The notes beneath the pieces were generated by a model, which saw only the letters and a list, made by a program, of their open reading frames with translations, searched no databases and had not been told where the DNA came from. The position numbers were made by a program, and so were the translations under genes. This document shows positions 3,517-23,948 of a stretch of DNA of 64,000 nt, in pieces. This stretch comes from Candidatus Nitrotoga sp. MKT. Its GTDB lineage: Bacteria > Pseudomonadota > Gammaproteobacteria > Burkholderiales > Gallionellaceae. The number at the start of each line of letters is the position of its first letter. Within the stretch, counting starts at the first letter, position 1. The stretch covers positions 186,001-250,000 of the forward strand of contig QFXH01000003.1 in assembly GCA_003402345.1 (NCBI GenBank), in the 5' to 3' direction.

Positions 3517-3530
3517 ACCCGGCTCCTACC

Positions 3531-8551: not shown

Positions 8552-9076
8552 ATGGCAACATTCACTGTTAACGCACAGCGCTTCGATCCTTACAAAAATT
8601 TCAAATTCCGTGTCAAATGGGATGGCCGATATGTCGCGGGCATTTCCAAGGTGGGCGCAATCAAGCGCAGCACTGAATTGGTTGAACACCGGGAGGGGGG
8701 CGATCCATCAACGTCACGCAAGTCACCTGGCCGCACCAAATTTGAGGCAATTACGCTGGATCGCGGCGTTACCCATGACACCGAATTTGAAAAATGGGCC
8801 AACAAGGTTTGGAACTATGGCTCTGGTTTGGGCGCCGAGGTCTCGTTGAAGGATTTCCGCAAGGATCTCATCATCGAAGTCTATAACGAGGCGGGTCAGC
8901 TTGCGCTCGCCTACAAGGTGTATCGTTGTTGGGTGTCAGAATACCAGGCCTTGCCTGATCTCGACGCCAATGCCAACGCGGTGGCCATCCAGCACATCAA
9001 GCTGGAAAACGAGGGCTGGGAACGTGACTACGATGTAACCGAGCCCAGCGAACCTAGCTTCACGGAACCAGCCTGA
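8552..9076 (+). CDS. eCIS inner tube protein (gp19-like)
   Basis: A 174-residue homologue of the T4 gp19 / Pvc1 tail tube. Supporting features are FDPYKNFKFRVKWDG near the start, the ISKVG and STELVEHREGGDP region, and a TKFEAITLDRGVTHD strand. It stacks as hexamers to form the tube inside the sheath. An AGGAGG site precedes it, and its TGA overlaps the next gene's ATG (TGATG). It is the only clear gp19-type gene; a second tube-fold protein lies at 20576. Confidence 0.93.
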   Translation: MATFTVNAQRFDPYKNFKFRVKWDGRYVAGISKVGAIKRSTELVEHREGGDPSTSRKSPGRTKFEAITLDRGVTHDTEFEKWANKVWNYGSGLGAEVSLKDFRKDLIIEVYNEAGQLALAYKVYRCWVSEYQALPDLDANANAVAIQHIKLENEGWERDYDVTEPSEPSFTEPA

Positions 9077-9813: not shown

Positions 9814-10541
9814 GCGGATTCCTGCATCGGCTCGCCGCACAGGCCATGGGCAGGACAAATACCCTACGTTCCGCAGTACGCACACCGTATGCCCCTTTTT
9901 CACCGGTAAACGGGGTAGAACCGGACACGCAAGCTGCTACGCTGAACCCAATTGATACCGAACGGCAACATAGGGGCAACGGTGATGCGGAAAGGGCTTC
10001 TGTGGCCAATCAAGAGCAGCAACATGTCGATACCTATGCAGAAATCGACATACAGCCCCGCGCCAATGAAATTGCGCCGTCGCTACCTGAAATATTAGTT
10101 ACCAAACCGGACATTAGCTTGCATACAAAATCAGATCGCCCCAGCGGCCTACCCTCATCGGCAAAAACAATGTTGCGGCAACCAAGTATGGAAAAAACGG
10201 TTGCGGGCGAACCTCCAGTTTTGGCTGAGGAAATTGAAATGCGTGTCCCGGAAAATGATTCCACAACGCTCCCAGGGAGCAATTACCCTACGCCACTTTT
10301 GCCGTTGAAGAATGCCGCACGTCCTTCGGCTTTGAATGCAAGTGTGGCAGCGCAACGTAGCGAACACAGTAGCCCTGGTCGACAAGGTCAGGCCGATGAA
10401 ATCACCGAAGTACATGTGAGCATAGGCCGCATCGAGGTTACTGCCGTGCATGAGCCGCCACCACCAAAACGCCAGGCTCCGACATCAGCCAAGCCGCTGT
10501 CGCTCGATGAATATCTTGCTCGCCGAGGTAAAAAAACATGA
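9810..10541 (+). CDS. eCIS-associated low-complexity protein, unknown
   Basis: A 243-residue protein rich in Pro, Ser, Thr, Gln and Glu and probably mostly disordered. The last ~50 residues hold an ordered motif (VSIGRIEVTAVHEPPPPKR, then SLDEYLARR), a pattern I associate with hypothetical proteins in other eCIS loci between the tube module and the DUF4255 gene. It overlaps both neighbours by ATGA, so it is made with the particle. It may be a connector or assembly chaperone. At this length and composition it would be an odd tape measure, though no other candidate is visible. Confidence 0.6.
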   Translation: MSGFLHRLAAQAMGRTNTLRSAVRTPYAPFSPVNGVEPDTQAATLNPIDTERQHRGNGDAERASVANQEQQHVDTYAEIDIQPRANEIAPSLPEILVTKPDISLHTKSDRPSGLPSSAKTMLRQPSMEKTVAGEPPVLAEEIEMRVPENDSTTLPGSNYPTPLLPLKNAARPSALNASVAAQRSEHSSPGRQGQADEITEVHVSIGRIEVTAVHEPPPPKRQAPTSAKPLSLDEYLARRGKKT

Positions 10542-11878
10542 GCAGCGCTCTCGCCATTGCCGGAGTAACCGCCGTGTTGCGCGATCTGCTCAATGACGGG
10601 TTGATCAACAATGACGCAACGGGCACTCTCGGCGCTACAGTCTCAGTAACCGCTGGGCCGCCTGATCGGGTGATACCGCCAAACGGTGGCACTGAGTCCT
10701 CCCAACTCAATCTGTTTATGTACCACGTTACACCTAACAGTGGCTGGCGCAACGAAAGGTTTCCTTCGCTCGATGCCTCCGGTAACCAGCGATTATCCAA
10801 CGCACCGCTCGCCCTCAACCTGCATTACCTGCTTTCAGCCCACGGCAGCGTAGACCTGCACGGTGAAATTCTGCTCGGTTATGCCATGCAACTTCTGCAC
10901 GAAACACCGATACTCAGCCGCAAAGCTATCCGGAAGGCACTCGATCCATCGCCTCCGGTAGGGGGTACGGCACTTCCGCCCGCGCTGAAAGCGTTGGCGG
11001 ATTCTGGACTTGAAAAACAGATCGAGCTGATCAAAATTACACCGGAATATCTCAGTACCGAAGAAATGTCCAAGCTCTGGACCGCCACGCAAAGTCATTT
11101 GCGTCCCACCGCAGCCTACATGGCCAGCGTGGTGTTAATAGAATCGAGCAAATCAGTCCGATCTGCCCTGCCGGTGCTAACGCGGGGGCCTGTGGTAAAG
11201 CCCGATCCACTAAATGTAGATACGTGGTACGAAAGTGGCATCAGTGCTGTGACTGGCCTTATTCCCCCTTATCCGATACTCGTTAGCATAGAACTGCCCA
11301 ACAAGCAAATAGCCGCGCGCCTAGGCGAGACCATTAAACTGAAAGGCTACAATCTCAACGGAACAAATCTTGTCGTGCGTTTTGCGCATTCTAGCCTGAC
11401 GGCACCGATTGATATCGCTTTCGGTACCAATGCAAATGAAGAAAGTTTTTCAGTGGCCTTGCCCAATACCGCTCAGGACAACATCGACTGGCCTGCGGGT
11501 ATATGGGAAGTGACTGCACTTTTACAACGTCCTGGCGAGACCGAAATCCGCAGTACCAATTCGCTTATGTTGTTCCTGGCACCGCGTATCGACGTAGCGG
11601 GCTCCACTGCCACTCGCGACTCTTCCGGAGTAACCATCAATCTTATTTTTGCTCCGCAAGCCCGGCCCGGCCAACGGATAAGCCTCAATGCAGGCGGATA
11701 TGAAGCGTCGCCAGAGAAATTTACCGCCCCGACAGCCAGCCTTCAATTCAAGTATGCGCAATTGCCTGCGGGGAGCCACCTGTTGCGTTTACGCGTCGAT
11801 GGCGCTGACAGCTTGCTGGTGAACCGGCTTACTACGCCGCCGCAATTCGACAACACACAAGTGTTAACCGTGCCATGA
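10538..11878 (+). CDS. DUF4255 tail-terminator/cap protein (Pvc16-like)
   Basis: A 446-residue protein. Residues 1-190 match the DUF4255 (Pvc16 N-terminal) family: ALAIAGVTAVLRDLL, then LNLFMYHVTPN, LALNLHYLLSAHG and a helical stretch ending in ETPILSRKAI. In PVC and Afp this family caps the end of the sheath and tube. The C-terminal half looks like two Ig/IPT-type beta domains (GETIKLKGYNL; ARPGQRISLNAGG), longer than minimal Pvc16. It is coupled by ATGA overlaps on both sides. Confidence 0.9.
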   Translation: MSSALAIAGVTAVLRDLLNDGLINNDATGTLGATVSVTAGPPDRVIPPNGGTESSQLNLFMYHVTPNSGWRNERFPSLDASGNQRLSNAPLALNLHYLLSAHGSVDLHGEILLGYAMQLLHETPILSRKAIRKALDPSPPVGGTALPPALKALADSGLEKQIELIKITPEYLSTEEMSKLWTATQSHLRPTAAYMASVVLIESSKSVRSALPVLTRGPVVKPDPLNVDTWYESGISAVTGLIPPYPILVSIELPNKQIAARLGETIKLKGYNLNGTNLVVRFAHSSLTAPIDIAFGTNANEESFSVALPNTAQDNIDWPAGIWEVTALLQRPGETEIRSTNSLMLFLAPRIDVAGSTATRDSSGVTINLIFAPQARPGQRISLNAGGYEASPEKFTAPTASLQFKYAQLPAGSHLLRLRVDGADSLLVNRLTTPPQFDNTQVLTVP

Positions 11879-13800
11879 ACGCCCCCGGCCCACGCCACGA
11901 CTGGACCGATGCAAATCAACGCCTGATGGGGGCTGAACTCACTCGTATCAAGGCGCGTTTAGCGGGTGAGGAGCAGGAATCGATGGCTACAGCAGCCGAA
12001 ATTCGCGCGGCATTATCGGCACAGTCAGCCATAGATCGCCTGGCTGAATGCTTTGGCTTGAGTCCTTTTGAACGAGACATCCTTCTGCTTTGTGCAGGCG
12101 TGGAAATGGACACAAAATTTTCCTCGCTGTGCGCCACTGCGCAAAATAATCCCCAGCGATCCTATGCGACATTCAGTCTGGCGCTGGCGACGCTGGAAGA
12201 ACCGCATTGGAGTGCACTTAGTCCGATACGCCCCCTGCGCCGGTGGCGTCTAATTGAGGTTACGGAAGAAACCAGTCTGGCAAATACGCGCCTACGCATA
12301 GATGAACGGGTACTGCACTTTCTGGTGGGGATCAATTACCTCGACATCCGTCTGGAACCCCTGCTGCAAAAAAGCAGCGTGGCAGCGATGATGGCGGATG
12401 TCCAACGCAAAACTGCACAAGCCATATTGGAGGCATTGCATGAGCGCAACGCACCTGTTCCAGTCATCCAACTGCTGGGGGATGACTGCGATGGCCAGAC
12501 AGATATCGCCGCCAGTGTCGCGGCTGAACTCGGGATGCAACTTCATATCCTGCATGCGGAAGACATACCAGCGGGTGTTCATGAACGTAACGCCTTCGCC
12601 GTGCTGTGGCAACGTGAATCCGTGCTGCTGTCCAGCGCCTTGCTGATTAAATGCCGCGACCAGACAAATACAGCCGCAGCCATCCGGCTTGCCGAAGATT
12701 TAAGTGGCTTGCTGTTTATCTCCAGCCATGATCCGCTGGAGCTACAACGCAGCACCTTGCGCTTCACCGTAAACAAACCGGGCGCTATGGATCAGAGAGC
12801 CTTATGGCAAGAGGCATTGGGTTCAGCGGCGCAGAAGCTTAATGGTTCGTTGGACGGGATCGCGTCCCAATACCGATTGAGCGCACAAACGATCTTGAGT
12901 ACCGGTGCCGAGATCAGCGACGCTATCAGCGCAAGCGATAAACCGGACGAACTGTTGTGGCGGACCTGCCGCACTTTGGGGCGACGGCAGCTGGATGATC
13001 TGGCGCAGCGTGTTGAACCGACCTCCCGCTGGGAAGATCTGATCCTGCCGGAACATCAAAAAGTGATCCTGGGCCAGGTCGCCAGCCATGTGCGCAACCG
13101 GCTCAAGGTCTGCGACGAATGGGGGTTTGCCCGCAAGAGTGCCCGCGGCATGGGCCTCAGCACCCTATTCGCCGGCGAAAGCGGTACCGGCAAAACCATG
13201 GCCGCCGAAGTGCTGGCCAACGAATTGCACCTCGATCTTTACCGCATAGATCTATCATCAGTGGTCAGCAAATACATCGGTGAGACGGAAAAGAACTTGC
13301 GCAAGGTTTTCGACGCTGCCGAGGACAGCGGCGCAATCCTGCTATTCGACGAGGCCGATGCCCTGTTCGGCAAGCGCAGCGAAGTGAAAGACAGCCATGA
13401 CCGCCATGCCAACATCGAAGTGAGTTATTTGCTGCAACGCATGGAGGCTTACACCGGCCTTGCCATCTTGACCACCAACCTGAAAACGTCGCTGGATACC
13501 GCTTTTCAGCGGCGCTTGCGTTTCGTTGTGCAATTTACTTTCCCCGATACCGAACAGCGCGAGGCCATCTGGCGCAGTGTATTCCCTGGTGCCACACCGA
13601 CCCATGGCCTGGATTACCGCAAGCTAGCGCAGCTCCAAGTGGCAGGCGGAAACATCCGCAACATCGCCCTTAATGCCGCATTTTTGGCCGCCGATACAGG
13701 CGAGGCTGTCGGCATGGTGCATCTACTGCACGCCGCCCACAGCGAGGGTTCAAAACGCGAGCGCCCTTTGACCGACGCAGAAACGCGGGGGTGGGTATGA
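11875..13800 (+). CDS. eCIS AAA+ ATPase (Pvc15-like)
   Basis: A 641-residue AAA+ ATPase. The N-terminal ~400 residues are helical and include a degenerate first nucleotide-binding region. The C-terminal AAA+ module has Walker A (GESGTGKT, about 433-440), Walker B with DEAD (LLFDEADALFGKR, about 489-500) and an arginine region FQRRLRF. The ATPase of this type (Pvc15/Afp15) is needed for particle maturation or cargo loading; its exact job is not settled. Its stop overlaps the start of the next small gene, directly upstream of the cargo array. Confidence 0.95.
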   Translation: MNAPGPRHDWTDANQRLMGAELTRIKARLAGEEQESMATAAEIRAALSAQSAIDRLAECFGLSPFERDILLLCAGVEMDTKFSSLCATAQNNPQRSYATFSLALATLEEPHWSALSPIRPLRRWRLIEVTEETSLANTRLRIDERVLHFLVGINYLDIRLEPLLQKSSVAAMMADVQRKTAQAILEALHERNAPVPVIQLLGDDCDGQTDIAASVAAELGMQLHILHAEDIPAGVHERNAFAVLWQRESVLLSSALLIKCRDQTNTAAAIRLAEDLSGLLFISSHDPLELQRSTLRFTVNKPGAMDQRALWQEALGSAAQKLNGSLDGIASQYRLSAQTILSTGAEISDAISASDKPDELLWRTCRTLGRRQLDDLAQRVEPTSRWEDLILPEHQKVILGQVASHVRNRLKVCDEWGFARKSARGMGLSTLFAGESGTGKTMAAEVLANELHLDLYRIDLSSVVSKYIGETEKNLRKVFDAAEDSGAILLFDEADALFGKRSEVKDSHDRHANIEVSYLLQRMEAYTGLAILTTNLKTSLDTAFQRRLRFVVQFTFPDTEQREAIWRSVFPGATPTHGLDYRKLAQLQVAGGNIRNIALNAAFLAADTGEAVGMVHLLHAAHSEGSKRERPLTDAETRGWV

Positions 13801-14051
13801 AACGTGTCGTCCTGCATATTGATAGTCTGGTATTAAAAGGTTTTCGGCACGAAGACCGGCATGGCATCGCCGAGGGCCTACAGCAGGAGTTGACCCGTCT
13901 GTTTGCCAATCCACAAGCCGCTCAGCAGTTGACGGCGAATGGTGATGTGTCGCGGCTACGGCTCGGCAGCATATCTATCGACCAGAATTCAAAACCGCAG
14001 CGCGTCGGATCGCAAGTGGCACAGGGCATTGGCAAGGGGATGAAGATATGA
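13797..14051 (+). CDS. Small conserved eCIS protein next to cargo genes
   Basis: An 84-residue protein. The ATG at 13797 overlaps the ATPase stop (ATGA), and its own stop overlaps the first cargo start. The sequence (VVLHIDSLVLKGF, HGIAEGLQQELTRLF, ending VGSQVAQGIGKGMKI) looks alpha/beta. I recall similar small ORFs beside DUF4157 genes in other eCIS loci. Position suggests a cargo chaperone or loading adaptor, but no function is known to me. Confidence 0.7.
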   Translation: MKRVVLHIDSLVLKGFRHEDRHGIAEGLQQELTRLFANPQAAQQLTANGDVSRLRLGSISIDQNSKPQRVGSQVAQGIGKGMKI

Positions 14052-15097
14052 GCACTTTTGCAATGCAGGAAAGCACTACTGACAAGTCACAGCTTTTGAG
14101 CAATTCGCCTAACACGGGACTGTTGTCGCAGCGTAAATACGCTTTGGGCTTGCCAAAGCCGTCGCTGATCAACGAGTACGAGAGTAAGACGCGCTTGCAA
14201 GCCAAGCTCACCATAGACGCAAGCAATGATCCGCTGGAGCAGGAAGCGGATCGGGTCGCGGATCAAGTATTGGCCGCACCTGCCCATTCCGCAGTGAGCG
14301 GAGCTGCACCGCGCATCCAGCGCTTTACTGGGCAAGCGGCAGGAGATGGGGAAACTGCAACCGCCAGCGTAGACCGTGTTCTATCTGGTTCCGGTAGGCC
14401 GCTTGATCCGGCAATACAGCAAGACATGGGGCAGCGCTTTGGTCATGATTTTTCGCAGGTGAGGGTGCATACCGGCTCCATCGCTGAGCAATCAGCGCAA
14501 GATATTAACGCCCATGCCTATACGGTGGGTAACAACATCGTGTTTGGTGCAGACGGATTTGCGCCAGGGTCGCACGAGGGGCGCAAATTGCTTGCCCATG
14601 AGTTGACGCATGTGGTACAGCAAACAGGTGCGGCAAGGATCCATGCTGGCCAAGGTGGTGAAAAACTTACATTATCCTCAGGGCGTAACCACACTATACA
14701 AAAACAGGAAGCTAAATCTGATGCGAACCCTGAAAAAAACAAAACTGATGACTCAACGCTTTCCGTCCAACTTGCCGAACCGGACTTTCTAAGCCTCAAG
14801 CAACCTTTTTTCGAGCGGAATATTTTTCAGCTTTGGGATCCAACTTCAGCCCTGGGTGTATGGAAATACAATTTGGACTTCTTCAAACGCTTTGGAGTGA
14901 GTGATAAATGGGCAGGCAAAGCCGCCAATCTGACCGCTCCGCTCGCCATTGATGCGCAATTAAAAGCCAGCAATCCTAAATGGTGGGAAATAACGGACAA
15001 AGAGTTAAAAACAACTTCAATAGTAGCGCCGATACCCATCTTTCAATTTGATGCCAATTTTAGCAATTGGAAGCCACTACCATTTTTACAGAAATAA
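14048..15097 (+). CDS. DUF4157 cargo protein 1 (unknown C-terminal region)
   Basis: A 349-residue protein. Residues 55-195 are the DUF4157 domain: DPLEQEADRVADQVL, the RVHTG motif, AHAYTVGNNIVFG and HELTH at 184-188 (a zincin-like HExxH). The first ~50 residues keep the family spacing but lack the four cysteines seen in the other three copies (QRKYALG in place of QRKCACG). The ~150-residue tail is unrelated to the others and Trp/Phe-rich (FQLWDPTSALGVWKYN, KWAGKAANLTAPL); I recognise no fold. DUF4157 is frequent in eCIS-associated toxins and effectors, so this is a likely payload. It is translationally coupled to the small gene before it. Confidence 0.85.
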   Translation: MSTFAMQESTTDKSQLLSNSPNTGLLSQRKYALGLPKPSLINEYESKTRLQAKLTIDASNDPLEQEADRVADQVLAAPAHSAVSGAAPRIQRFTGQAAGDGETATASVDRVLSGSGRPLDPAIQQDMGQRFGHDFSQVRVHTGSIAEQSAQDINAHAYTVGNNIVFGADGFAPGSHEGRKLLAHELTHVVQQTGAARIHAGQGGEKLTLSSGRNHTIQKQEAKSDANPEKNKTDDSTLSVQLAEPDFLSLKQPFFERNIFQLWDPTSALGVWKYNLDFFKRFGVSDKWAGKAANLTAPLAIDAQLKASNPKWWEITDKELKTTSIVAPIPIFQFDANFSNWKPLPFLQK

Positions 15098-15156
15098 TAT
15101 TTGCATCCATTTTAAAGATCAGATGAACTATAACCATCGCCAAGAGGGTTGAAGTA

Positions 15157-15745
15157 ATGAGTACCGTTGCATCACTGCAAAATAGTGCTGTCAAGTCACC
15201 GCCCGTAAGCGAATCGCCTTACGCGGGATTGATGTTGCAGCGCAAGTGCGCTTGCGGTGGGTCGGCGTCATCGTCATTAAGTGGTGAATGCGGGGAATGC
15301 AATAAAAAACGTTTGCAAAAGAAACTCAGCATAGGCGCTAGTAACGATCCACTGGAACAGGAAGCGGATCGGGTCGCTGATCAGGTGTTGGAAGCGCCGT
15401 CACATTCCTCATTTAGCAGCGCAACACCGAGCATTCAGCGCTTTATGGGTCAAGCGACAGGGAATTTAGATGCTGCACCACCTAGCGTGGATCAAGTGCT
15501 TTCTGGTTCCGGCAAGCCGCTGGATTCTGCATTACAGCAGAACATGGAACAGCGCTTCGGATATGATTTTTCGCAAGTGCGCGTGCATACCGGCCTAGCT
15601 GCCGAGCAATCAGCACGGGACGTAAACGCCCATGCATACACTGTGGGACCAAATATTGTGTTCGGTGCAGACCAGTTTGTGCCGGGGTCGCACGAAGGGC
15701 AGCGGCTACTTGCCCATGAGTTGACGCATGTGGTACAGCAATCAG
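15157..15745 (+). repeat. Cargo leader direct repeat, copy A
   Basis: The first ~590 bases of cargo gene 2 are closely similar at DNA level to 17550-18138 and 19061-19652. For example, the block coding GGSASSSLSGEC through LEQEAD is nearly base-for-base the same. The similarity stops soon after the HELTH codons. It is weaker in cargo gene 1. Confidence 0.85.
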
Positions 15746-16899
15746 GTTCAGATAGGATTCGTGTTGGTCAAAGTAATGAAAACAGTAGCCTGTCCACCAA
15801 TTCTCATGTCGTGCAGCGGCAGCCGGCACCGCCCAAGAAATGGAAAATACTCTCGCTAGAAGAGATCAAGTCTGACTCCATGCGCGAGAAGCGTCGTGAA
15901 AAATCAGGACAGGTCGAAGCCAAAGTCTGCCGAACGACCGGAAAAATCGGTAAACAATTAACTAAAGAAGACTGTCCAACTGTCCTGGAACCGGGTAGAG
16001 AGGTTAACATCGTCAAGAAACTACATGACGGCTTCTGGTTACAGATCGAGAACACGGGCTTTGCCGATATTGGGCCTAAAGAGCTGACATATGTTCTCGG
16101 AGCATTTGTTGATGAACCAATTTCCCCGCTGGATTCGGGCGAAAGTTGGCTGGACCCCAGTTCGAGCATTAGCAATTCCTGGGACCTGTACCAGAAAGCC
16201 CAAGCTGATCCGACCCAATCGAATCTAAAGCTGGTCTGGGCATCGCGTAGCGAAATAAAGGCTTGGCTGACGAGCATAGGCAAAACGCTGGCCCCGCAAG
16301 ATGCCAAACTGACACGGCGCAATCTGGATGATTATCGGCGTATTTATGCGTCTGCCGAACAACTGTGGATAGCAAGCGATAAATTGCTCGCGCTGCATCA
16401 GTATCCTGATGCAGCTAAAGGTACCTATACAGAATGGGCGGTAGGCAGTGGTAACGATCAGGGTGATAGCATCCATGCCAAAAACGTTCCCACTACGGCC
16501 AAGTATCACGTAGACATCTTCGGCGAGGGTTACTTCAAAGGGGCGGTCAACATTGGCATGGCCGAACGCACCAGCACCACCGGTATCAACAACTCACGCG
16601 TGCCCAATTTGATTTACCGCAAGTTTTCCCGCAAGAACACCAACACGCTGCCGATCGCCGACCATGTTGCGGATTTGGTCACTTCAGAAAACGGTCCCAT
16701 TGACATGCCGGGTCTTGCCGAAGAGATTGCCCGCATCATCGCCCCTGGTGGCACCATCGTGCTTATCAATCCGGTAAGTGAAAAGGCCAGCCACGACAAG
16801 GTCGCCAAAGCGACGGGCGGTACCGTTAATCAGGTAGTTACCAACAACAGCAGGAGCGTAGAAACCGTACAGACGACGATTGTCGTTCCAGGACCGTAA
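15157..16899 (+). CDS. DUF4157 cargo protein 2 with methyltransferase-like C-terminus
   Basis: A 580-residue protein. The N-terminal leader (1-200) has a four-cysteine cluster (C31, C33, C45, C48; QRKCACGG and GECGEC), DUF4157 motifs and HELTH at 187-191. Residues about 275-315 look like a small SH3-type barrel (GREVNIVKKLHDGFWLQIE). Residues about 445-575 resemble the second half of a class I methyltransferase fold: LPIADHVADLVTSE (499-512) followed by EEIARIIAPGGTIVLINP (522-539). A canonical glycine-rich SAM motif I is not obvious (FGEGYFKGAVNIG is the nearest), so activity is doubtful. Likely an eCIS payload. The next gene starts 2 bases later, so the two are a unit. Confidence 0.82.
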   Translation: MSTVASLQNSAVKSPPVSESPYAGLMLQRKCACGGSASSSLSGECGECNKKRLQKKLSIGASNDPLEQEADRVADQVLEAPSHSSFSSATPSIQRFMGQATGNLDAAPPSVDQVLSGSGKPLDSALQQNMEQRFGYDFSQVRVHTGLAAEQSARDVNAHAYTVGPNIVFGADQFVPGSHEGQRLLAHELTHVVQQSGSDRIRVGQSNENSSLSTNSHVVQRQPAPPKKWKILSLEEIKSDSMREKRREKSGQVEAKVCRTTGKIGKQLTKEDCPTVLEPGREVNIVKKLHDGFWLQIENTGFADIGPKELTYVLGAFVDEPISPLDSGESWLDPSSSISNSWDLYQKAQADPTQSNLKLVWASRSEIKAWLTSIGKTLAPQDAKLTRRNLDDYRRIYASAEQLWIASDKLLALHQYPDAAKGTYTEWAVGSGNDQGDSIHAKNVPTTAKYHVDIFGEGYFKGAVNIGMAERTSTTGINNSRVPNLIYRKFSRKNTNTLPIADHVADLVTSENGPIDMPGLAEEIARIIAPGGTIVLINPVSEKASHDKVAKATGGTVNQVVTNNSRSVETVQTTIVVPGP

Positions 16900-16901
16900 C
16901 C

Positions 16902-17336
16902 ATGTCCTACAAAGTCACCCGTGATCAAGATAGTTGCCCGAGTATTACTTTAACAGACGAACCACCCTATGTTCATGCATTGGTTGCGGCACCTTCTGCG
17001 CGGGAACCCGAGCTCAATACGGACAATTGGCTAGTAATGGCCTTCGCCGTTTGGAGCACGCCAGACAACTTAGCCATTCAAACGGCTCTTGATGTGGCCA
17101 GACGCTTTAGTGGAAAACTTAATCTTGGACTACGCCCTTTCGATGATACGGAAGAACTTGGCGCTTGGTGTCCCGGCTTAGAGTACTGTGGGCAAAGTCC
17201 GCTTTGGGTGTTGCTCCATGATGGCGAGATATGTATGAAGCGCAGTGGGTTTTTTGCAGTTGATGAACTAGCCGGGGTGATTGGCGATGCCTGTGACCGA
17301 TTTAGCAATCGCCAAATAATTGAAAAGCCTGCGTAA
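16902..17336 (+). CDS. Thioredoxin-like protein lacking the redox cysteines
   Basis: A 144-residue protein starting 2 bases after cargo gene 2. From about residue 43 it follows a thioredoxin layout: hydrophobic strand LVMAFAVW, then STPD where thioredoxin has CGPC, helix NLAIQTALDVARRF, strand GKLNLGLRPFD, a Ser-Pro before strand LWVLLHDGE (the cis-proline position), GFF and a final helix. Both active-site cysteines are therefore replaced, and redox activity is unlikely. It may be a chaperone, immunity or adaptor protein for the adjacent cargo. The fold is inferred by eye. Confidence 0.6.
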   Translation: MSYKVTRDQDSCPSITLTDEPPYVHALVAAPSAREPELNTDNWLVMAFAVWSTPDNLAIQTALDVARRFSGKLNLGLRPFDDTEELGAWCPGLEYCGQSPLWVLLHDGEICMKRSGFFAVDELAGVIGDACDRFSNRQIIEKPA

Positions 17337-17549
17337 GGTGGATGGAGAATTCGCCGTATGATAACGCGTAAATACAATGGCGTAAGTGACAATGGCTTAG
17401 CATATTGCGCCGAATGGAAGGTGATTGATACCTCCATTGCAATACTTGATTGACAGTGAGTAATCATTATTGGAACAAAAGAAAGTTTATCTTAACTGCG
17501 CAGAAGAAAAGTAATCCAGTAAAGACCCTGATAACCAGGAGATGAAGTA

Positions 17550-18138
17550 ATGAGTACCGCTGCACCACTACAAAACACTGTTGCCAAGTCATCGTTCGTG
17601 GGCAAATCGCCGCACGCGGGACTGCTGTTGCAGCGCAAGTGTGCCTGCGGTGGGTCGGCGTCATCATCACTAAGTGGTGAATGCGGGGAATGTAATAAAA
17701 AACGTATGCAAAAGAAACTCAGCATAGGCGCTAGTAACGATCCGCTGGAACAGGAAGCGGATCGGATTGCTGATCAAGTACTGGCAGGGCCAGTAAATTC
17801 CAAAGTCAGCAAGGTACCACCGCGCATTCAACGTTTCACGGGGCAATCCTCCGGGGAGATGGATACGGTGCCAGTCAGTGTCGATCGCGTGCTTGCTGGT
17901 TCGGGCAGGCCGCTTGATACGGCATTACAGCAAGACATGGGGCAACGCTTCGGTCATGATTTTTCGCAGGTGCGCGTGCACACCGGCTTGGCTGCCGAGC
18001 AATCAGCGCGGGACGTACATGCCCATGCCTATACGGTGGGACACAACATTGTGTTTGGGGCAGGCGGATTCGCGCCAGGGTCACACGAGGGGCGCAAACT
18101 GCTTGCGCATGAATTAACGCATGTGGTGCAGATGGAAC
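17550..18138 (+). repeat. Cargo leader direct repeat, copy B
   Basis: Second copy of the ~590-base cargo leader, close to 15157-15745 and 19061-19652. The similarity includes a short upstream stretch with the ribosome site (GATGAAGTAATGAGTACCG here, AAATGAAGTAATGAGTACCG before copy C). Confidence 0.85.
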
Positions 18139-18890
18139 AGGCACCCACTCAGATTAAGCGCAAGATCAGGAGTGATCCCCAAGTCTCACTTAATAAATTC
18201 TTATCTGAAAAGGGGGTTCAACATTACACCGAAAGTAACAGCGTCTACGAACGTCCCAAAGGGGGCGCTGTGAATTTCGAACAGGAGATACTCATCGACA
18301 TGCTGGCTTCACCGCGCATCTTTAACGTCGAAGGCGGCAGTGACCCAGTTGCGGCATCCAATCTGAACAACCATCTCAAAGCGCGGATTGGCATTGTCAC
18401 CTTTGCAGGGCAAAAGAAATACAACTTCGCCGCTTTGGCCGGATGGTCGATGAATCCTAAATACTATGAGTGGGATGTCAACAAAGGAACCTGGAAGATG
18501 AAGCCCGATGTGAATCGCCAAGAAGCTTGGGACGATCTTAATGTTAATGCACAACTTTACGCAATCGGCTGTGCGGCGGCGACGGACCTGACGATGAAAG
18601 GAGGCAGCAAGGGTGCGGACATTATTGACAAGCCCAGCAGCGACATTAATGATTGGGTGCCTGGCGAAGCTGGTTACATCGAGAACACGAATTACCCACC
18701 AGGTGGCGGCATCGGCGTGATGGGGGAGAATCTTATATATACCGGTAACGGAAAGTTTTGGGGACATTTGCCCGGTACAGACACTTACCGTACTCTTCCC
18801 GAGTGGATCAAGGAAGTTCATAGCTGGCATCAAGGTGCCAAAGTGCTCGAGAAGCGCGAATTGCCAGCAACGGGATTAATGGACAAATAA
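17550..18890 (+). CDS. DUF4157 cargo protein 3 with Tgl-type transglutaminase-like domain
   Basis: A 446-residue protein. The leader has C31, C33, C45 and C48, DUF4157 motifs and HELTH at 187-191. Residues about 215-430 resemble Bacillus protein-glutamine gamma-glutamyltransferase (Tgl, the small spore-coat enzyme). IGCAAAT gives a candidate catalytic Cys341. DWVPGEAGYIEN aligns with the Tgl PGD segment. MGEN gives Glu393 and KFWGH gives His406; the 13-residue Glu-His spacing equals that of B. subtilis Tgl as I remember it (Glu187, His200). Such a domain would crosslink or deamidate glutamines in a target protein. Likely an eCIS effector. A GGAG site 7 bases upstream fits the start. No dedicated immunity gene follows. 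Confidence 0.82.
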   Translation: MSTAAPLQNTVAKSSFVGKSPHAGLLLQRKCACGGSASSSLSGECGECNKKRMQKKLSIGASNDPLEQEADRIADQVLAGPVNSKVSKVPPRIQRFTGQSSGEMDTVPVSVDRVLAGSGRPLDTALQQDMGQRFGHDFSQVRVHTGLAAEQSARDVHAHAYTVGHNIVFGAGGFAPGSHEGRKLLAHELTHVVQMEQAPTQIKRKIRSDPQVSLNKFLSEKGVQHYTESNSVYERPKGGAVNFEQEILIDMLASPRIFNVEGGSDPVAASNLNNHLKARIGIVTFAGQKKYNFAALAGWSMNPKYYEWDVNKGTWKMKPDVNRQEAWDDLNVNAQLYAIGCAAATDLTMKGGSKGADIIDKPSSDINDWVPGEAGYIENTNYPPGGGIGVMGENLIYTGNGKFWGHLPGTDTYRTLPEWIKEVHSWHQGAKVLEKRELPATGLMDK

Positions 18891-19060
18891 GTTGAAATTT
18901 TAGCCAAATAAGAAGCTGAATCAATGAATCTTCATTGTTGATTAACAAAGAACCGTAGTTTTATTCATACAGAACTGTAATGACCGCACTAGAAAATCAA
19001 GCAATGAGAAAATTAGGAAAACCTAAATGACCTGCTATTCGAAAACCAGGAAATGAAGTA

Positions 19061-19652
19061 ATGAGTACCGCTACAACACTACAAAACACTGTTGCCAAAT
19101 CTCCGCTCGTGGGCAAATCGCCGCACGCGGGATTCCTCTTGCAGCGCAAGTGCGCTTGCGGCGGGTCAGCGTCATCATCATTAAGTGGTGAATGCGAGGA
19201 ATGCAATAAAAAACGTTTGCAAAAGAAACTTAGCATAGGCGCCAACAACGATCCGCTGGAACAAGAAGCGGATCAGATCGCCGATCAAGTATTAGCAGCG
19301 CCAGCATATTCCACAGTCAGTAGGTCACCGCCACGCATCCTCCAACGCTTCACCGGGCAATCCTCCGGAGAGGCGGATATGGCACCCGCCAGTGTTGATC
19401 GCGTGCTTACTGGTTCCGGCAGACCGCTTGATCCGGTGCTACAGCAAGATATGGGGCAACGCTTTGGATATGATTTTTCGCAGGTGCGGGTGCATACCGG
19501 CGCGGCTGCCGAACAATCGGCAAGGGATGTGAGCGCCCATGCTTACACGGTGGGACATAATATTGTGTTTGGTGCCGGCCAATTCTCGCCGGGGTCAAAT
19601 GCAGGTCAGCGTTTACTTGCCCATGAGTTGACTCACGTGCTACAGCAACAGT
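19061..19652 (+). repeat. Cargo leader direct repeat, copy C
   Basis: Third copy of the cargo leader (see 15157-15745 and 17550-18138). It carries a one-codon insertion (PRILQRF in place of PRIQRF). Homologous leaders before unrelated tails are substrates for tail exchange. Confidence 0.85.
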
Positions 19653-20536
19653 CACTGGGTGCCACGGCGGTACAGATGCAACTCTTACAGCGGCGCGAAT
19701 GTAAGTCTGATCGTAAGTGCAGTGAGACCGAAAATTGTACACAGCCAGATGCGGATGAGAAGAGCGACGGTAGTGAGAGTAAATGGTACAGTCTCACCGT
19801 GAATGTAGATGTTGAAGCGGATGACTTCGAATCCGCGCTGCGATCGATGCGACTTGGACACACCCACGTACGATTCGCGGAGAGCAATGGTACCCAATAT
19901 AGCTATGGTTTCTATCCTGCTGGCGAAACTCCGAACGAAAAAAAGCCCAGCGTACCTGGCTGTGTAAATCACCCTGACACAAAACACGACGCCTGTACTG
20001 ACCGTGCCGTGACTTTTTCCCTGAAAAAAGAGCAATATCTGTCCGGCTTAGAACATGCCCAGGAAATCTGTCGCACGGGTCATTTTTACGGCATTGATAG
20101 CTCTAAAGTTAGTTACACCTGCACCACTTTTGCCGCTAATGTGACAAACGCAGCCGGCAAAAACCTGCCAAGTTCGGCGAGCAAACCTACAACAATTTAC
20201 TATCAAAAAATACCGTCAATCGATAACCCCAATACGTTGAATGAAAATCTGGAAGACGAGCAAAAAGGGATGGGCACCGACGAGGAGGTATTGACGGCGA
20301 TTGAGATGTGGGGCGAAAGCACATTGAATAGTTTCCATCATCAAGAGAAGTCACGTTGGATACGGATGTTGCTCGCAGGCTGGATTAGCGATCGTGACGT
20401 CGATGCAGTCGTGAAGGTTGCCAACGCCACCTCGGCGAGCAATCTGACCAAGATCCGCTCCGATGTTGACAGTTTTGTTAAAGATATGAGTACTGCTGCA
20501 CAGAAAAAGCGTGTTCGCACAGCGCTTGGCTATTAG
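19061..20536 (+). CDS. DUF4157 cargo protein 4 with permuted papain-like domain and annexin-like tail
   Basis: A 491-residue protein. The leader is as in copies 2 and 3 (C31, C33, C45, C48; HELTH at 188-192, here followed by VLQQ). Residues about 245-385 fit a circularly permuted papain-like (NlpC/P60-type) amidase or peptidase: LGHTHVRF (candidate His267) comes first, then YGFYPAG, and later SYTCTTFAANV (candidate Cys354). An extra Cys-rich segment lies at 214-226. The last ~90 residues open with KGMGTDEEVL (402-411), the GxGTDE signature of annexin calcium loops, followed by helices. The target could be a peptide or isopeptide bond, with the annexin-like part possibly for membrane binding; both are inferences. 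Last gene of the cargo array, 39 bases before the baseplate module. Confidence 0.8.
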   Translation: MSTATTLQNTVAKSPLVGKSPHAGFLLQRKCACGGSASSSLSGECEECNKKRLQKKLSIGANNDPLEQEADQIADQVLAAPAYSTVSRSPPRILQRFTGQSSGEADMAPASVDRVLTGSGRPLDPVLQQDMGQRFGYDFSQVRVHTGAAAEQSARDVSAHAYTVGHNIVFGAGQFSPGSNAGQRLLAHELTHVLQQQSLGATAVQMQLLQRRECKSDRKCSETENCTQPDADEKSDGSESKWYSLTVNVDVEADDFESALRSMRLGHTHVRFAESNGTQYSYGFYPAGETPNEKKPSVPGCVNHPDTKHDACTDRAVTFSLKKEQYLSGLEHAQEICRTGHFYGIDSSKVSYTCTTFAANVTNAAGKNLPSSASKPTTIYYQKIPSIDNPNTLNENLEDEQKGMGTDEEVLTAIEMWGESTLNSFHHQEKSRWIRMLLAGWISDRDVDAVVKVANATSASNLTKIRSDVDSFVKDMSTAAQKKRVRTALGY

Positions 20537-20575: not shown

Positions 20576-21232
20576 ATGAGTGGCTATTCGAATTCTCCAA
20601 AAATTCTCAAAGGCGGCATCGTGCTGATCGATGCCGAATCGGGCCGGGTGCTGCGCATCATTTCGCTGCAGTACAACCCGGAAAAAATGACGCGCACCCT
20701 GCAAGTGCAGGGTGCCGGCGGCGAGGGTGGTAACCGCTCGGAAGCCATGCGTTTCAAGGGTCCAGCGGTGGAGACGTTCAAGCTGGAGGCGGACATCGAT
20801 GCGGCGGATCAATTGGAATTTCCCGACCAACACCGCTCCGTGGTGGAAAACGGCATTCAGCCGCAAGTGTCAGTGCTGGAATCGCTGGTCAACCCGACCA
20901 GCAGCCAGTTGCTCGACCGCAATGCAATGTCACAGTCCGGCACACTGGAGATCGCGCCGATGGAGGCGCCACTGGCCCTTTTTGTATGGGGAAAAAATCG
21001 CATCGTGCCGGTGCGAATTACAGATTTCAGCGTGACCGAAGAAGCCTTTGACCCATCCTTGAATCCAATCGTCGCCAAGGTAAGCATTGGCTTTAGGGTG
21101 CTGAACGTGGATGATCTCGGTTTCAGTCATAAGGGCGGTAGTTTGTTCATGAGCTATTTGCAAAACAAGGAACGGCTTGCGGCTAAAGCGCAGGCGGGCG
21201 CTTTCTCCACGCTTGGAATAGGAGGCATTTGA
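20576..21232 (+). CDS. eCIS tube/baseplate adaptor protein (CIS-tube family)
   Basis: A 218-residue protein of the contractile-injection-system tube family found before the LysM gene in eCIS loci (the Pvc6/Afp6 position). Motifs are KGGIVLIDAESGRVL, SLQYNPEKMTRTLQVQ and a conserved PLALFVWGKNRIVPVRITDFSVTEEAFDPSLNPI. It is likely the first tube-like layer on the spike. The stop and the next start overlap (ATGA). It restarts the structural module after the cargo array. Confidence 0.88.
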   Translation: MSGYSNSPKILKGGIVLIDAESGRVLRIISLQYNPEKMTRTLQVQGAGGEGGNRSEAMRFKGPAVETFKLEADIDAADQLEFPDQHRSVVENGIQPQVSVLESLVNPTSSQLLDRNAMSQSGTLEIAPMEAPLALFVWGKNRIVPVRITDFSVTEEAFDPSLNPIVAKVSIGFRVLNVDDLGFSHKGGSLFMSYLQNKERLAAKAQAGAFSTLGIGGI

Positions 21233-21597
21233 TGATAGATCCAATCCAGGCGTTCATGCAGGCGAATTCTCTGGTCACTCCCCTGTTTCCGCCTGAGAGC
21301 CGTTACCACGGTATCGCAGCGGTGCAGTCCACTCAGCCGGATGGCACGGTCGTCGCGTATCTGAAGCGCCGCTTCGTGCCGCCGCCGGAAAACTTCTCGC
21401 TATTGCAGGAGCACATGGTCACTGCGGGCGACCGGCTGGATAATCTTGCCGCGCACTATATCGGGGATCCGTCACAGTACTGGCGCATCTGCGATGCCAA
21501 CGGCGCCATACGCCCCGAAGAATTGACGGATACTGCGGGCAAGCGTCTGCGCATCACTTTGCCAGAAGGCGTTCAGGGAGTGACCGATGCTGGCTAA
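21229..21597 (+). CDS. eCIS LysM-domain baseplate protein (Pvc7-like)
   Basis: A 122-residue protein. The C-terminal half is LysM-like: HMVTAGDRLDNLAAHYIGDPSQYWRICDAN, ending with RLRITLPEG. The N-terminal half has the eCIS/phage pattern SRYHGI and YLKRRFVPPPE. In phage and eCIS baseplates this small LysM protein (gp53/Pvc7) joins the hub to the wedges. It overlaps the next gene by 11 bases. Confidence 0.9.
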   Translation: MMIDPIQAFMQANSLVTPLFPPESRYHGIAAVQSTQPDGTVVAYLKRRFVPPPENFSLLQEHMVTAGDRLDNLAAHYIGDPSQYWRICDANGAIRPEELTDTAGKRLRITLPEGVQGVTDAG

Positions 21598-22729
21598 GGG
21601 GATACATCTCACGCTGATGATCGGCCCTATCGTGCCGGTGCCGGTACCGCAGATGGTGATGAACGCGCTCGATAGCGTGCAGGTCACTACGGCGGCGGGC
21701 GCGGCGAGTGGCTTTCAGATGAGCTTCCAATTCAGCAGCAAGTCGGAATTGAACACGTTCTTCATCATCGCCGGCGCAATGAATAGCGGTCCCGCTACAC
21801 CGCCGTTGCGAGTCATGCTGACCATCACCCTCAACGGTACGCCACAGCCGCTGTTTGACGGGGTAATGACGAATGTAGAGGTGCAGGCGGGAAGCAACGG
21901 CGCTCCGGGCACGGTGACGGTTACCGGGGAGGATCTTACCAAGGTCATGGACATGCTCGATTTCAGCGGCCTGCCTTACCCTGCATTGCCAATCGAGGCA
22001 CGCGTGGCGCTGATTTGCGCCAAATACGCGGCCTTTGGCTTAATTCCGCTGGTTATTCCAGTACTGTTTCCTGATGTTCCTATCCCAGTGGACAAAATTC
22101 CCGCCCATAAGGGTACCGACCTTCAATACATTCAACAGCTCGCTGAAGAGGCCGGCTACATTTTTTACATCGAGCCTGGGCCGGCGGCGGGTACCAACAT
22201 CGCTTATTTTGGGCCCGAGATCAAAGTAGGCGTGCCGCAACCGGCGCTAAACGTGGACATGGACGGGTTAACCAACGTTGAGAATATGAATTTTTCGTTC
22301 GATCCGACCAAGGGTGTGCTGCCGGTCGTGTTCATCCAGAATCAACTTACGCGCTTCCCAATTCCGATCCCGATTCCCAACATTAATCCGTTACAGCCAC
22401 CGCTGGGAGCGCTTTCTACAACGCTCAGCAACCTCAAGATATTGAAGGACACGGCAAAGATGAACCCGATGCAGGCGATTTTAAGGGGGCTCAATGAAGC
22501 GAAGAAGTCGCAGGACTCAGTGAGCGCCAATGGCAGCATTAATGTACTGCGCTACGGTCGGCCACTGAAAGCCAGGCAGCTGGTCGGTGTGCGTGGCGCA
22601 GGCATCGCTTACGACGGCCTGTATTTTGTACAAAGCGTCACCAGCACACTCAAGCGCGGCGAGTTCAAGCAAAGTTTCAACTTGACACGCAACGGTCTGA
22701 TTTCAATTACACCGAGGGTTCCCGTATGA
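21587..22729 (+). CDS. eCIS spike hub, gpD/gp27-like half of Pvc8
   Basis: A 380-residue protein of the phage late-control gpD type. It has two beta-barrel regions and the typical HKGTDLQYIQQLAEEAGYIFYIEPG, plus YDGLYFVQSVTSTLKRGEFKQSF near the end. It forms the trimeric hub between tube and needle. In PVC the hub and needle are fused in one Pvc8/VgrG polypeptide; here the needle part is the separate next gene, overlapping by ATGA. Confidence 0.88.
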   Translation: MLAKGIHLTLMIGPIVPVPVPQMVMNALDSVQVTTAAGAASGFQMSFQFSSKSELNTFFIIAGAMNSGPATPPLRVMLTITLNGTPQPLFDGVMTNVEVQAGSNGAPGTVTVTGEDLTKVMDMLDFSGLPYPALPIEARVALICAKYAAFGLIPLVIPVLFPDVPIPVDKIPAHKGTDLQYIQQLAEEAGYIFYIEPGPAAGTNIAYFGPEIKVGVPQPALNVDMDGLTNVENMNFSFDPTKGVLPVVFIQNQLTRFPIPIPIPNINPLQPPLGALSTTLSNLKILKDTAKMNPMQAILRGLNEAKKSQDSVSANGSINVLRYGRPLKARQLVGVRGAGIAYDGLYFVQSVTSTLKRGEFKQSFNLTRNGLISITPRVPV

Positions 22730-23241
22730 GCGACAGCGGCAATTTTTATGGCAAGTACCGCGGCATGGTACTCAACAATATAGACCCAATGCAGATGGGA
22801 CGATTGCAGGTACAGGTGCCTGATGTGGCGGGCCTTATTCCCACAACCTGGGCAATGCCCTGCGTGCCGGTGGCCGGGATAAATATGGGCATGTTTGCGT
22901 TGCCTATGATCGGTAGCGGCGTATGGGTAGAATTCGAACAGGGTAATCCGGATCACCCGATTTGGGTCGGTTGCTTCTGGGGCAGCGCCGCAGAGCTGCC
23001 GGTGTTGTCACGTATGGTGCCGCCCGCAGTGCCTGGCATCACGTTGCAGACTCCGCTGAAGAATGGCCTGATTATTAGTGACGTACCCGGCCCCACGGGA
23101 GGCATTCAGTTGCAAACCACGACCGGTGCCATGATCTCGGTGACCGACATCGGCATCATGATTTCCAACGGCAAGGGCGCGGTGATCAATCTCACCGGGC
23201 CGACGGTGGACATCAATCTCGGGGCACTCACGGTGATATAA
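22726..23241 (+). CDS. eCIS spike needle, gpV/gp5-like half of Pvc8
   Basis: A 171-residue baseplate-assembly-protein-V type spike. It opens with an OB-fold (GKYRGMVLNNIDPMQMGRLQVQVPDV, then AMPCVPVAG, GSGVWVEFEQGNPDHPIWVG). It ends with a short beta-helix needle (GGIQLQTTTGAMISVTDIGIMISNGKGAVINLTG). It mounts the PAAR-like tip encoded 13 bases downstream. Confidence 0.92.
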   Translation: MSDSGNFYGKYRGMVLNNIDPMQMGRLQVQVPDVAGLIPTTWAMPCVPVAGINMGMFALPMIGSGVWVEFEQGNPDHPIWVGCFWGSAAELPVLSRMVPPAVPGITLQTPLKNGLIISDVPGPTGGIQLQTTTGAMISVTDIGIMISNGKGAVINLTGPTVDINLGALTVI

Positions 23242-23254
23242 GGAGAACGACACT

Positions 23255-23572
23255 ATGCCCGCACCCATCCTTCATCTTGGCGCCACGGTAACCTGCATGC
23301 ATGCAGGGCCAGCGACACCGCTTACGCCATTTCCGCGTGTGCTGCTGAGCGGCCAACCAGTGACCACAGTGGCCACGCCCTATGCGATTACCGGCTGCGC
23401 CCTCACCGGCACACCCAACCCGCCCTGCGTCACCGCGCAATGGGTGGTGGGCGCAGTACGGGTGCTGGCTGGCGGTGTGCCAGTGCTGATACAAACGGGA
23501 CAGGCGGTGTGCGTGCCTACTGGCACTGGTTTGTTGCCATTAGTGGTTCAACCCAGGGTGCTCGCGACATGA
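23255..23572 (+). CDS. eCIS spike tip, PAAR-like (Pvc10-like)
   Basis: A 105-residue tip protein. It has beta-hairpins rich in Gly, Pro and Thr with scattered Cys and His (LGATVTCMHAG; YAITGCALTG; NPPCVTAQW; GQAVCVPTG), which could bind a metal ion at the needle point as PAAR proteins do. It sits between spike and gp25 genes, the usual place for Pvc10. The AAGGAGA site at 23240 supports this start. Confidence 0.85.
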   Translation: MPAPILHLGATVTCMHAGPATPLTPFPRVLLSGQPVTTVATPYAITGCALTGTPNPPCVTAQWVVGAVRVLAGGVPVLIQTGQAVCVPTGTGLLPLVVQPRVLAT

Positions 23573-23579
23573 GGTACTT

Positions 23580-23948
23580 ATGAGCCAGATTGACTATCCC
23601 TTCCAATTCGATGGCCGTGGTCGCACCGCGCAGACGGACGAGTCCGGCTATATTCGCGACCTCATCGAGCAAGTGTTGCTCACTTCGCCGGGCGAACGCG
23701 TAATGCGTCCCACCTTCGGTAGTGGCGTGATGCAATTGGTGTTTGCCGCCGCCAGTCCTGAAGTGGCAGCGACCACACAATTCCTGATTCAAGGCGCCTT
23801 GCAGCAATGGCTTGGCGACCTCATCACCGTGGACACCGTCGATGTGCAGGCACAGGACAGCGCCTTACTCATTACCGTGCAATATGTAGAACGCCGCACG
23901 CAAACTCGCGGCATGGCGCAGATCAGCGCGCCGGGAAGCGGCTTATGA
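23580..23948 (+). CDS. eCIS baseplate protein, gp25/GPW-like (Pvc9-like)
   Basis: A 122-residue gp25-family protein. The motifs are diagnostic: YIRDLIEQVLLTSPGERVMRPTFGSG, then TQFLIQGALQQW and a beta hairpin ending QYVERRTQ. It belongs to the inner baseplate and nucleates sheath assembly. Its stop overlaps the next start (ATGA). Confidence 0.95.
   Translation: MSQIDYPFQFDGRGRTAQTDESGYIRDLIEQVLLTSPGERVMRPTFGSGVMQLVFAAASPEVAATTQFLIQGALQQWLGDLITVDTVDVQAQDSALLITVQYVERRTQTRGMAQISAPGSGL

Follow-up and report, generated by a model that had tools for sequence, protein, structure and literature searches.

Candidatus Nitrotoga is a nitrite oxidiser, and its genome includes an eCIS operon with four DUF4157 (Pfam eCIS_core) cargo genes. 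This raises the question of what four cargo genes that begin alike and end differently do in a single operon, and how such an array arises. It is addressed here from a 64,000-nucleotide stretch of the Candidatus Nitrotoga sp. MKT genome (the window, to which all coordinates refer) and from related loci in other genomes.

The cargo array and the operon around it

Re-reading of the open reading frames at 14048-20536 returned the same four genes, all on the + strand, as a preliminary description of the window: cargo 1 (14048-15097; 349 aa; tail family T2), cargo 2 (15157-16899; 580 aa; T1), cargo 3 (17550-18890; 446 aa; T3) and cargo 4 (19061-20536; 491 aa; T5). A Pfam profile search, proposed there as a check, matched PF13699 (eCIS_core) to all four with E values of 1.4e-30 to 6.2e-33 (9e-33, 6.2e-33 and 4.7e-32 for cargoes 1, 2 and 4, respectively), and each contains the reported HELTH motif. 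The shared leader of approximately 195 residues is also borne out, with protein identities of 66-83% and DNA identities of 72-82% that are far beyond chance. The description had equated this leader with DUF4157, but eCIS_core corresponds only to its last ~78 residues (118-198). A four-cysteine motif is absent from the leader of cargo 1 and present in the other three. Beyond the leader the tails are unrelated, as claimed: in blastp comparisons, one of the six tail pairs gave no match and the other five matched over short stretches at E values of 0.007 to 6.7.

A fifth gene inside the array, here o144 (16902-17336, + strand), was overlooked in the preliminary description. It encodes a leaderless 144-aa protein and is the partner of cargo 2. 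An 84-aa protein with no Pfam match is encoded between the ATPase gene and cargo 1 (13797-14051, + strand). This gene overlaps cargo 1 by 4 bp, so the proposed coupling of the genes holds at the start of the array, but not for the spacing between cargoes, which is 59 bp from cargo 1 to cargo 2, 213 bp ahead of cargo 3 and 170 bp ahead of cargo 4. A consensus scan of the + strand yielded no terminator-like site, which is weak evidence that the array could form one transcript. PADLOC and PHROGs returned no matches for the six proteins scanned.

The array lies, as described, between the AAA ATPase and the CIS_tube and baseplate genes, all on the + strand. Upstream are genes for the sheath (6943-8526; PF17482/PF04984), the tube protein gp19 (8552-9076; PF06841), two proteins with no match over the Pfam cut-off (9076-9813 and 9810-10541), Pvc16_N (10538-11878; PF14065) and the AAA ATPase (11875-13800; PF00004). 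Downstream, Pfam matches were obtained for a tube-like CIS_tube protein (20576-21232), the gene that follows it (21229-21597), the spike (base V; 22726-23241), gp25 (23580-23948), a baseplate J protein (23807-26695) and a baseplate J protein with PA14 (26692-29667), while the genes at 21587-22729, 23255-23572 and 29664-31703 have none. The probable tail fibre (31716-35147) combines DUF6519 (PF20129, 3.5e-49), which serves in eCIS fibres as the anchoring domain and is termed eBAP5 (PMC12923769), with NosD repeats (PF05048, 1.1e-13). Sheath, tube, spike, gp25, baseplate J, Pvc16 and AAA ATPase thus occur in one locus, and an eCIS particle is predicted from these genes. A homologue of the 84-aa protein is present in 44 of the 51 loci with DUF4157 after the ATPase, a count that takes in the Nitrotoga loci and a single duplicate. 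A search for solved relatives of this protein gave a single chance-level match, and it may be a loading adaptor.

Association of DUF4157 genes with eCIS

Across 399 sampled genomes of the order, Pvc16_N was found in 30 of the 35 genomes with a strong DUF4157 match (E value of 1e-18 or better) and in 20 of the 364 others (Fisher p 9e-27). When weak matches are included, the figure is 41/63. The preliminary description would have been refuted by finding the same genes commonly in genomes without any eCIS; as 30/35 strong-match genomes have Pvc16_N, this is not the case for strong matches, and its reading of eCIS-linked, modular cargoes that share a leader is supported. G091, a genome that looks complete, carries DUF4157 but lacks Pvc16_N, which counts against the link.

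Variation of the slot within the genus

The cargo slot was found in 10 of 19 genomes of the genus, where the same flanking genes enclose 2-5 cassettes, giving 33 genes and 11 tail families in total. One further genome (G015) has the eCIS but its slot reads N, and was counted neither way. A T2-T1-o144 arrangement on a 3.9-kb contig of G355, a genome that is 87% complete and 6% contaminated, was left uncounted. DUF4157 with an HExxH motif precedes a variable tail in 4/4 window genes and in 33/33 genus-array genes (HELTH in 30, HELVH in two and HELAH in one).

The arrays are mosaic. Alike leaders bear unrelated tails, near-identical tails bear differing leaders, and the junctions can be mapped. 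Family T2 occurs in seven of the 10 arrays, in the first position each time. Tails also reappear in distantly related taxa, there joined to different leaders (only matches with an E value of 1e-8 or better were considered). The first ~100 residues of the third cargo of G008 are close to those of an Aquabacterium gene, and we conclude that the N-terminal parts move too, a point against the explanation favoured below.

Predicted functions of the tails

The tail of cargo 3 exceeds the cut-off of the TGL family PF20085 (2e-13; 50.6 bits versus 23.7) and matches 7c9j at an E value of 1.7e-8. The Cys and GEN...GH motifs, which we take to be catalytic, align. By its profile match, this tail is a TGL-type protein-glutamine gamma-glutamyltransferase.

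The C-terminal domain of cargo 2 is weakly methyltransferase-like. Among eight T1 members, the best Pfam matches were to Anamorsin_N (0.0029; 6/8) and Methyltransf_11 (0.092; 2/8), both below the cut-off, and the best PDB match of cargo 2 was an rRNA methyltransferase (E value 0.07). In the other branch of T1, the middle part resembles OmpA weakly (E value 0.088 in 1/8), and the by-eye impression that the middle of cargo 2 is SH3-like was dropped when a library search gave no match.

Searches for solved relatives of the cargo 1 (T2) and cargo 4 (T5) tails found none, and no function could be recognised for either, which counts against the explanation favoured below. The cargo 4 tail shares 33% identity over 166 aa with a tail in one of the fetched loci (L088). 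A by-eye GTDE motif had suggested an annexin, but PF00191 is absent both from the whole protein (E values up to 1) and from its last 97 aa (E values up to 0.5).

The partner gene of cargo 2

The preliminary description held that no dedicated immunity genes follow the cargoes. However, o144 directly adjoins cargo 2, and the same tail has o144 downstream in 10/10 loci compared, which were those fetched for comparison and are not an exhaustive list. Their hosts are Nitrotoga, Methylococcales, Aquabacterium and an acidobacterium, and such fixed adjacency across distant hosts would be expected of a toxin-immunity pair. T1 and o144 were found together in three and both were absent from 47 of 50 genomes, a count that drew on 50 of 75 loci from a peptide-pattern search (best 80 of 204 matches). 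Among the 399 genomes of the order sample, o144 is present in two, the window's own and G355, and none was found in plasmids or in viral contigs. Another genome (G013) has an Ntox16 cargo with an overlapping DUF6714 gene. Since the T1 and Ntox16 cargoes both have partner genes, candidate immunity genes only, the inference that the weapon is aimed at other cell types has lost its basis.

The predicted model of o144 has a thioredoxin fold, and CxxC is replaced by WSTPD or WSIPD in 10/10 sequences. We regard o144 as a candidate immunity protein or chaperone of cargo 2.

The N-terminal part as a possible address

The 75 fetched loci were found with peptide patterns inside the leader (best 80 of 204 matches) and hence are a non-random sample. 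Seven (L042-L048) are Nitrotoga loci and were omitted from non-Nitrotoga counts; one of these, L048, is filed as Nitrosomonadales, and its ATPase is 91% identical to that of the window. The comparison took in 120 genes from 63 loci, each with 40-260 aa ahead of the core; L052, a duplicate of L049, was omitted. The part before DUF4157 (~118 residues) is 1.89 times more alike within loci than between them, versus 1.09 times for the DUF4157 core and 1.03 times for the tails. These statistics suggest that the N-terminal part may be an operon-specific loading address. Against this reading, the core too shows a slight excess of within-locus similarity (p 0.0005). The correlation with the ATPase is weak (rho 0.19-0.31, p 0.066-0.010, 18 tests), which counts against the explanation that we favour below.

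A probable exchangeable cargo slot and its alternatives

Given the observed anatomy, eCIS link, slot variation, mosaicism and partner linkage, we think that the array is probably an exchangeable eCIS cargo slot, in which each cargo consists of an N-terminal part, a DUF4157 core and a tail, and tails are swapped by recombination. The AAA ATPase encoded next to the array, possibly together with the 84-aa protein, would recognise the N-terminal part (~118 aa, operon-specific) and load the cargo into the tube; the core (~78 aa) has a zincin-like motif, and cargo 2 additionally has a dedicated partner. Contraction would free the cargo into a target cell, where the tail would act. Loading, the role of the ATPase and injection are extrapolated here from the AlgoCIS and PVC literature. 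The leader-coding DNA would offer a stretch of homology, and recombination there could exchange tails, partner included, between strains and with distant bacteria, which may explain the diversity of cargo. A bolder version, which we put forward tentatively and think somewhat less likely to be right than wrong, is a three-part plug-in cargo. The N-terminal ~118 residues would be an address matched to the particle's own ATPase and the DUF4157-coding DNA a conserved recombination joint. Entire modules, each a tail together with its redox-dead thioredoxin-fold guardian, would hop between particles belonging to different classes and phyla, and the N-terminal part present at the new site would give them a new address.

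Tandem duplication alone, with later decay of the tails and no exchange, could account for the 83% identity of the leaders of cargoes 3 and 4 and for the similar stretches ahead of their start codons. It is nonetheless very improbable, as within each of the families T2-T7 the tails of different strains are 87-99% identical, no similarity links one family to another, and tails recur in distant taxa with other leaders. Mis-binning is likewise very unlikely to be the source of the T1-o144 unit seen in distant taxa. Three of its loci (L055, L056 and L085) lie on contigs from metagenome-assembled genomes, but their ATPases are 46-48% identical to that of the window and L055 and L056 differ from one another (59.5% over 126 aa). 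They are therefore distinct operons, whatever host name they bear.

Whether o144 is instead a chaperone, loading adaptor or co-factor, not an immunity protein, is close to evenly balanced. The predicted thioredoxin fold without CxxC would suit such a role, as would the shortened, 111-aa o144 found next to a T1 gene that is still open in one draft genome (G010). o144 also tracks the divergence of T1 loosely: between G000 and G003 it is 94% identical where the T1 domain is 82%, and between G000 and G009 82% where the T1 domain is 97%. DUF4157 proteins have themselves been discussed as chaperones (PMC11297309). Yet downstream adjacency, fixed pairing and the finding of no cargo-free o144 fit a toxin-immunity pair equally, and the identities of T1 and o144 do correlate (rho 0.73 over 10 loci, the pairs being non-independent; 0.49 without L085). 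DUF4157 may also be a zincin autoprotease that cuts off the tail in the course of export or afterwards, with loading a secondary function of the leader. This is a reasonable but less than even prospect. HExxH is kept in every slot gene, and such a function was proposed for PVC-metallopeptidase toxins (PMC3482391). On the other hand, growth inhibition by Cgo1 of AlgoCIS was independent of the metalloprotease motifs, though that assay does not bear on release (PMC8894135), and the predicted AlphaFold structure of cargo 2 (pLDDT 42) is too poor for a structure search or for judging the active site. A releasing protease is compatible with the exchangeable cargo slot, and both can hold.

Comparison with known systems

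A paper of 2021 gave DUF4157 the status of a core eCIS domain whose role was unknown, and also called the missing immunity genes a mystery (PMC8213781). Exchange among the Nitrotoga strains amounts to a set of natural swap experiments in which the part before DUF4157, the core and the tail are separated, and cargo 2 with o144 offers a clean pair of cargo and partner on which toxin-antitoxin action could be tested. Should the N-terminal part prove to be an address, comparative data could reveal its rules. A multi-cargo eCIS in a nitrite oxidiser bears on the roles of these particles outside animal hosts, and our search of one literature library found no paper on contractile injection in Nitrotoga or in nitrifying bacteria, or on phage tails in Nitrotoga genomes.

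A constant DUF4157 N-terminus with variable toxin tails has already been published (Zhang 2012; Geller 2021); the slot survey and its junctions, the o144 linkage and the operon-specific N-terminal part are added here. The PVC-metallopeptidase toxins of Zhang et al. likewise have a constant N-terminal HExxH domain, variable C-terminal toxins (among them Ntox16, transglutaminase, OmpA-type and ALF-type tails), an AAA ATPase neighbourhood and recombination. A notable share of them lack immunity genes, whereas one Nitrotoga tail has a fixed partner, and in Nitrotoga the junctions were mapped inside one genus (PMC3482391). The EAT1-EAT17 toxins also join an N-terminal DUF4157 to a C-terminal toxin, and EAT14, like cargo 3, has a transglutaminase domain, though it is Transglut_prok (PF09017) rather than TGL (PF20085) (PMC8213781, PMC11297309). 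The RES-like toxin EAT5 and its immunity gene resemble cargo 2 and o144 in that the linked partner is conserved across diverse bacteria; immunity was demonstrated for EAT5, while o144 is a candidate immunity protein, encoded downstream and with a predicted thioredoxin fold (PMC8213781).

PVC effectors are loaded via N-terminal signal peptides and the Pvc15 ATPase (PMC11495950). For DUF4157 cargoes, the experimental evidence of loading comes from another species, in AlgoCIS (2022), where two such cargoes, Cgo1 and Cgo2, are loaded independently and the tubes are approximately 93% empty without them (PMC8894135). As in Nitrotoga, these cargoes of one eCIS have similar N-terminal parts, disordered in AlgoCIS, and different C-termini. 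However, AlgoCIS has two cargoes with demonstrated lumen loading, while Nitrotoga has four and a partner, identified as genes (PMC8894135).

Cargo array of the window

The four genes at 14048–20536, with products of 349, 580, 446 and 491 aa, all encode DUF4157 (Pfam eCIS_core) proteins. As the preliminary description had it, they share a leader of ~195 residues, the HELTH motif is present in 4/4, and their tails are without relationship to one another. The leaders are 66–83% identical. The placement it gave was also correct. The array lies between the gene for an AAA ATPase, with an overlapping 84 aa gene, and the CIS_tube and baseplate genes of an eCIS that includes sheath, tube, Pvc16, spike, gp25, two baseplate J proteins and a DUF6519 fibre. 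The 84 aa gene (13797–14051) was found in 44 of 51 loci that have the ATPase and DUF4157, counting the Nitrotoga loci and one duplicate. A Pfam search with the window protein returned no match, and it is a possible loading adaptor. Upstream of the eCIS, 1576–6068 encodes a FecR/LysM protein and a CHASE2-GGDEF-EAL protein, neighbours that raise the possibility of c-di-GMP signalling beside the operon.

The tail of cargo 3 is predicted to be a TGL transglutaminase, with which its Cys and GEN...GH motifs align. For cargo 2, the likeness to methyltransferases is weak at best; the AlphaFold model of this protein was poor (pLDDT 42) and was left out of all readings. No solved relatives were found for the tails of cargoes 1 and 4.

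Distribution of DUF4157 genes

The tie of DUF4157 genes to eCIS, also named in the preliminary description, was evident across 399 genomes sampled from the order, where Pvc16_N was present in 30/35 genomes with a strong DUF4157 match (E 1e-18 or better) and in 20/364 others (Fisher p 9e-27). When weak matches were included, it was present in 41/63. Four of the five genomes with a strong match and no Pvc16_N are drafts of at least 410 contigs each. The remaining one, G091, has 3 contigs and seems to be a genuine exception, as none of the window ATPase and baseplate proteins compared had a match in the 19 kb that surround its DUF4157 gene. Among 61 relatives, DUF4157 was found in 17, Pvc16_N in 17 and both in 15.

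Within the genus, DUF4157 genes occupy the slot in 10 of 19 genomes; an additional genome, G015, has an eCIS in which the slot is unreadable. The ten arrays have 2–5 cassettes each, 33 genes in total, with 11 tail families. T2, the family of window gene 1, is in seven arrays and leads in 7/7, while T1 (gene 2) is in seven, T3 (gene 3) in six and T5 (gene 4) in two. Among the other tails are an Ntox16 domain (E 8.5e-7) and matches below threshold to an ATLF-type peptidase and OmpA. The window's array size is not unique, since among 67 non-Nitrotoga loci from the best 80 of 204 leader-peptide-pattern matches, counted within the fetched stretch only, 28 had one DUF4157 gene, 21 two, 10 three, five four, two five and one six.

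In G013, the Ntox16 cargo (L030:5656–7931) is overlapped by a 210 aa ORF matching DUF6714, possibly a second cargo–partner pair, and an IS200-like transposase ORF (L030:10628–11188; E 4.5e-4, slightly below the cut-off) lies at the 3′ edge of the slot. G014 (L031:7936–9559) and G015 (L119:9354–10574) carry, immediately before the tube gene, a clostripain-family (C11) peptidase gene that lacks DUF4157 and is 90% identical between them. In G014 it is preceded by a shortened second copy of the tube gene start, which looks like an insertion scar.

DUF4157 genes also occur away from the slot. A lone gene of ~470–480 aa with an OmpA-like tail (E 0.024) is present in seven of the ten array genomes, at L041:6832–8241 (contig C8) in the window genome; the other copies (L040, L120–L124) are 89–93% identical to it. 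In G006, G007, G008 and G016 it is 32–42 kb from the eCIS on one contig. In G013, four more DUF4157 genes (L036, L037, L038, L039) are scattered over contigs away from the slot.

Exchange of modules

Two genus genomes carry mosaics, with an unrelated tail behind a slot-1 type leader in G006 and behind a T3-type leader in G008. In both, DNA identity is ~80–100% per 20-codon bin until near residue 180–200 (73% in the last bin before the junction in G008), and beyond this it is no higher than between unrelated sequences. T4 tails that are 92–94% identical are found on three leaders of 63–72% mutual identity. The tail was better conserved than the leader in 21/21 T2, 15/15 T3 and 3/3 T4 pairs but in 10/21 T1 pairs, though pairs have genomes in common and are non-independent.

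T1 tails extend beyond the genus. Those of L055 (filed under Methylococcales) and L056 (filed under Aquabacterium) are 98% identical over 432 aa, and share 88–89% identity with two Nitrotoga tails and 63% with that of the Pyrinomonadaceae locus L085. The ATPases of the three loci are 46–48% identical to the window ATPase, and those of L055 and L056 are 59.5% identical over 126 aa, with leaders 67–93% alike in most bins after the first. The DNA block shared with Nitrotoga runs from near codon 100–130, where the DUF4157 core starts, through o144, the 144 aa gene directly after cargo 2. Only the last ~264 aa are common to the window and L055/L056 branches of T1, so that a middle part must have been exchanged too. 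The acidobacterial T1 gene (L085:7377–10907; 1176 aa) has two LLAHEL..H stretches in the alignment, and its product seems to have two DUF4157 cores.

A locus-specific N-terminal part

Each cargo was divided into three segments, namely the core, the N-terminal part that precedes it (median 118 aa, capped at 130) and the tail, and 120 genes from 63 loci (from the best 80 of 204, Nitrotoga excluded) were compared. The ratio of similarity within loci to that between loci was 1.89 for the N-terminal part, against 1.09 for the core and 1.03 for the tail, which suggests that a loading address may lie in the N-terminal part. The excess had a permutation p of 0.0005 for the N-terminal part and for the core too. 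Among pairs whose core similarity did not exceed the median (29 within, 3538 between) the N-terminal ratio was still 1.79, and thus recent duplication alone is insufficient as an explanation. Most within-locus pairs are unremarkable, as only 27/90 for the N-terminal part and 14/90 for the core were above the 95th percentile of between-locus pairs. Correlation with the ATPase is no more than suggestive, with a best-pair rho of 0.31 (p 0.010) and a mean rho of 0.19 (p 0.066) among 18 tests, and two baseplate proteins showed none; the bootstrap interval for the difference between the N-terminal part and the core was 0.06–0.39. N-terminal parts are mobile too, because the first ~100 residues of the third cargo of G008 resemble those of the Aquabacterium T1 gene.

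Together, an N-terminal address, a DUF4157 joint, and tail and partner modules that move between particles would make up a plug-in cargo. As only 27/90 within-locus pairs stand out, we have lowered our estimate of this reading and offer it tentatively, as somewhat improbable.

Comparison with known systems

A 2012 study (PMC3482391) already describes an unvarying DUF4157 N-terminus joined to toxin tails that differ, their recombination, and a notable proportion of DUF4157 toxins without immunity genes. Later papers report DUF4157 as an eCIS core domain (2021; PMC8213781), two cargoes in one tube system (2022; PMC8894135) and EAT14 as a transglutaminase cargo (2024; PMC11297309). Our literature searches found no paper on Nitrotoga or nitrifying bacteria with eCIS, and titles and abstract openings yielded none on contractile injection effectors with a thioredoxin or immunity partner. 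With the window array and its Nitrotoga relatives, the role of DUF4157 becomes easier to test. As far as these searches go, the slot survey, the mapped junctions, the T1–o144 unit and the N-terminal specificity test are new.
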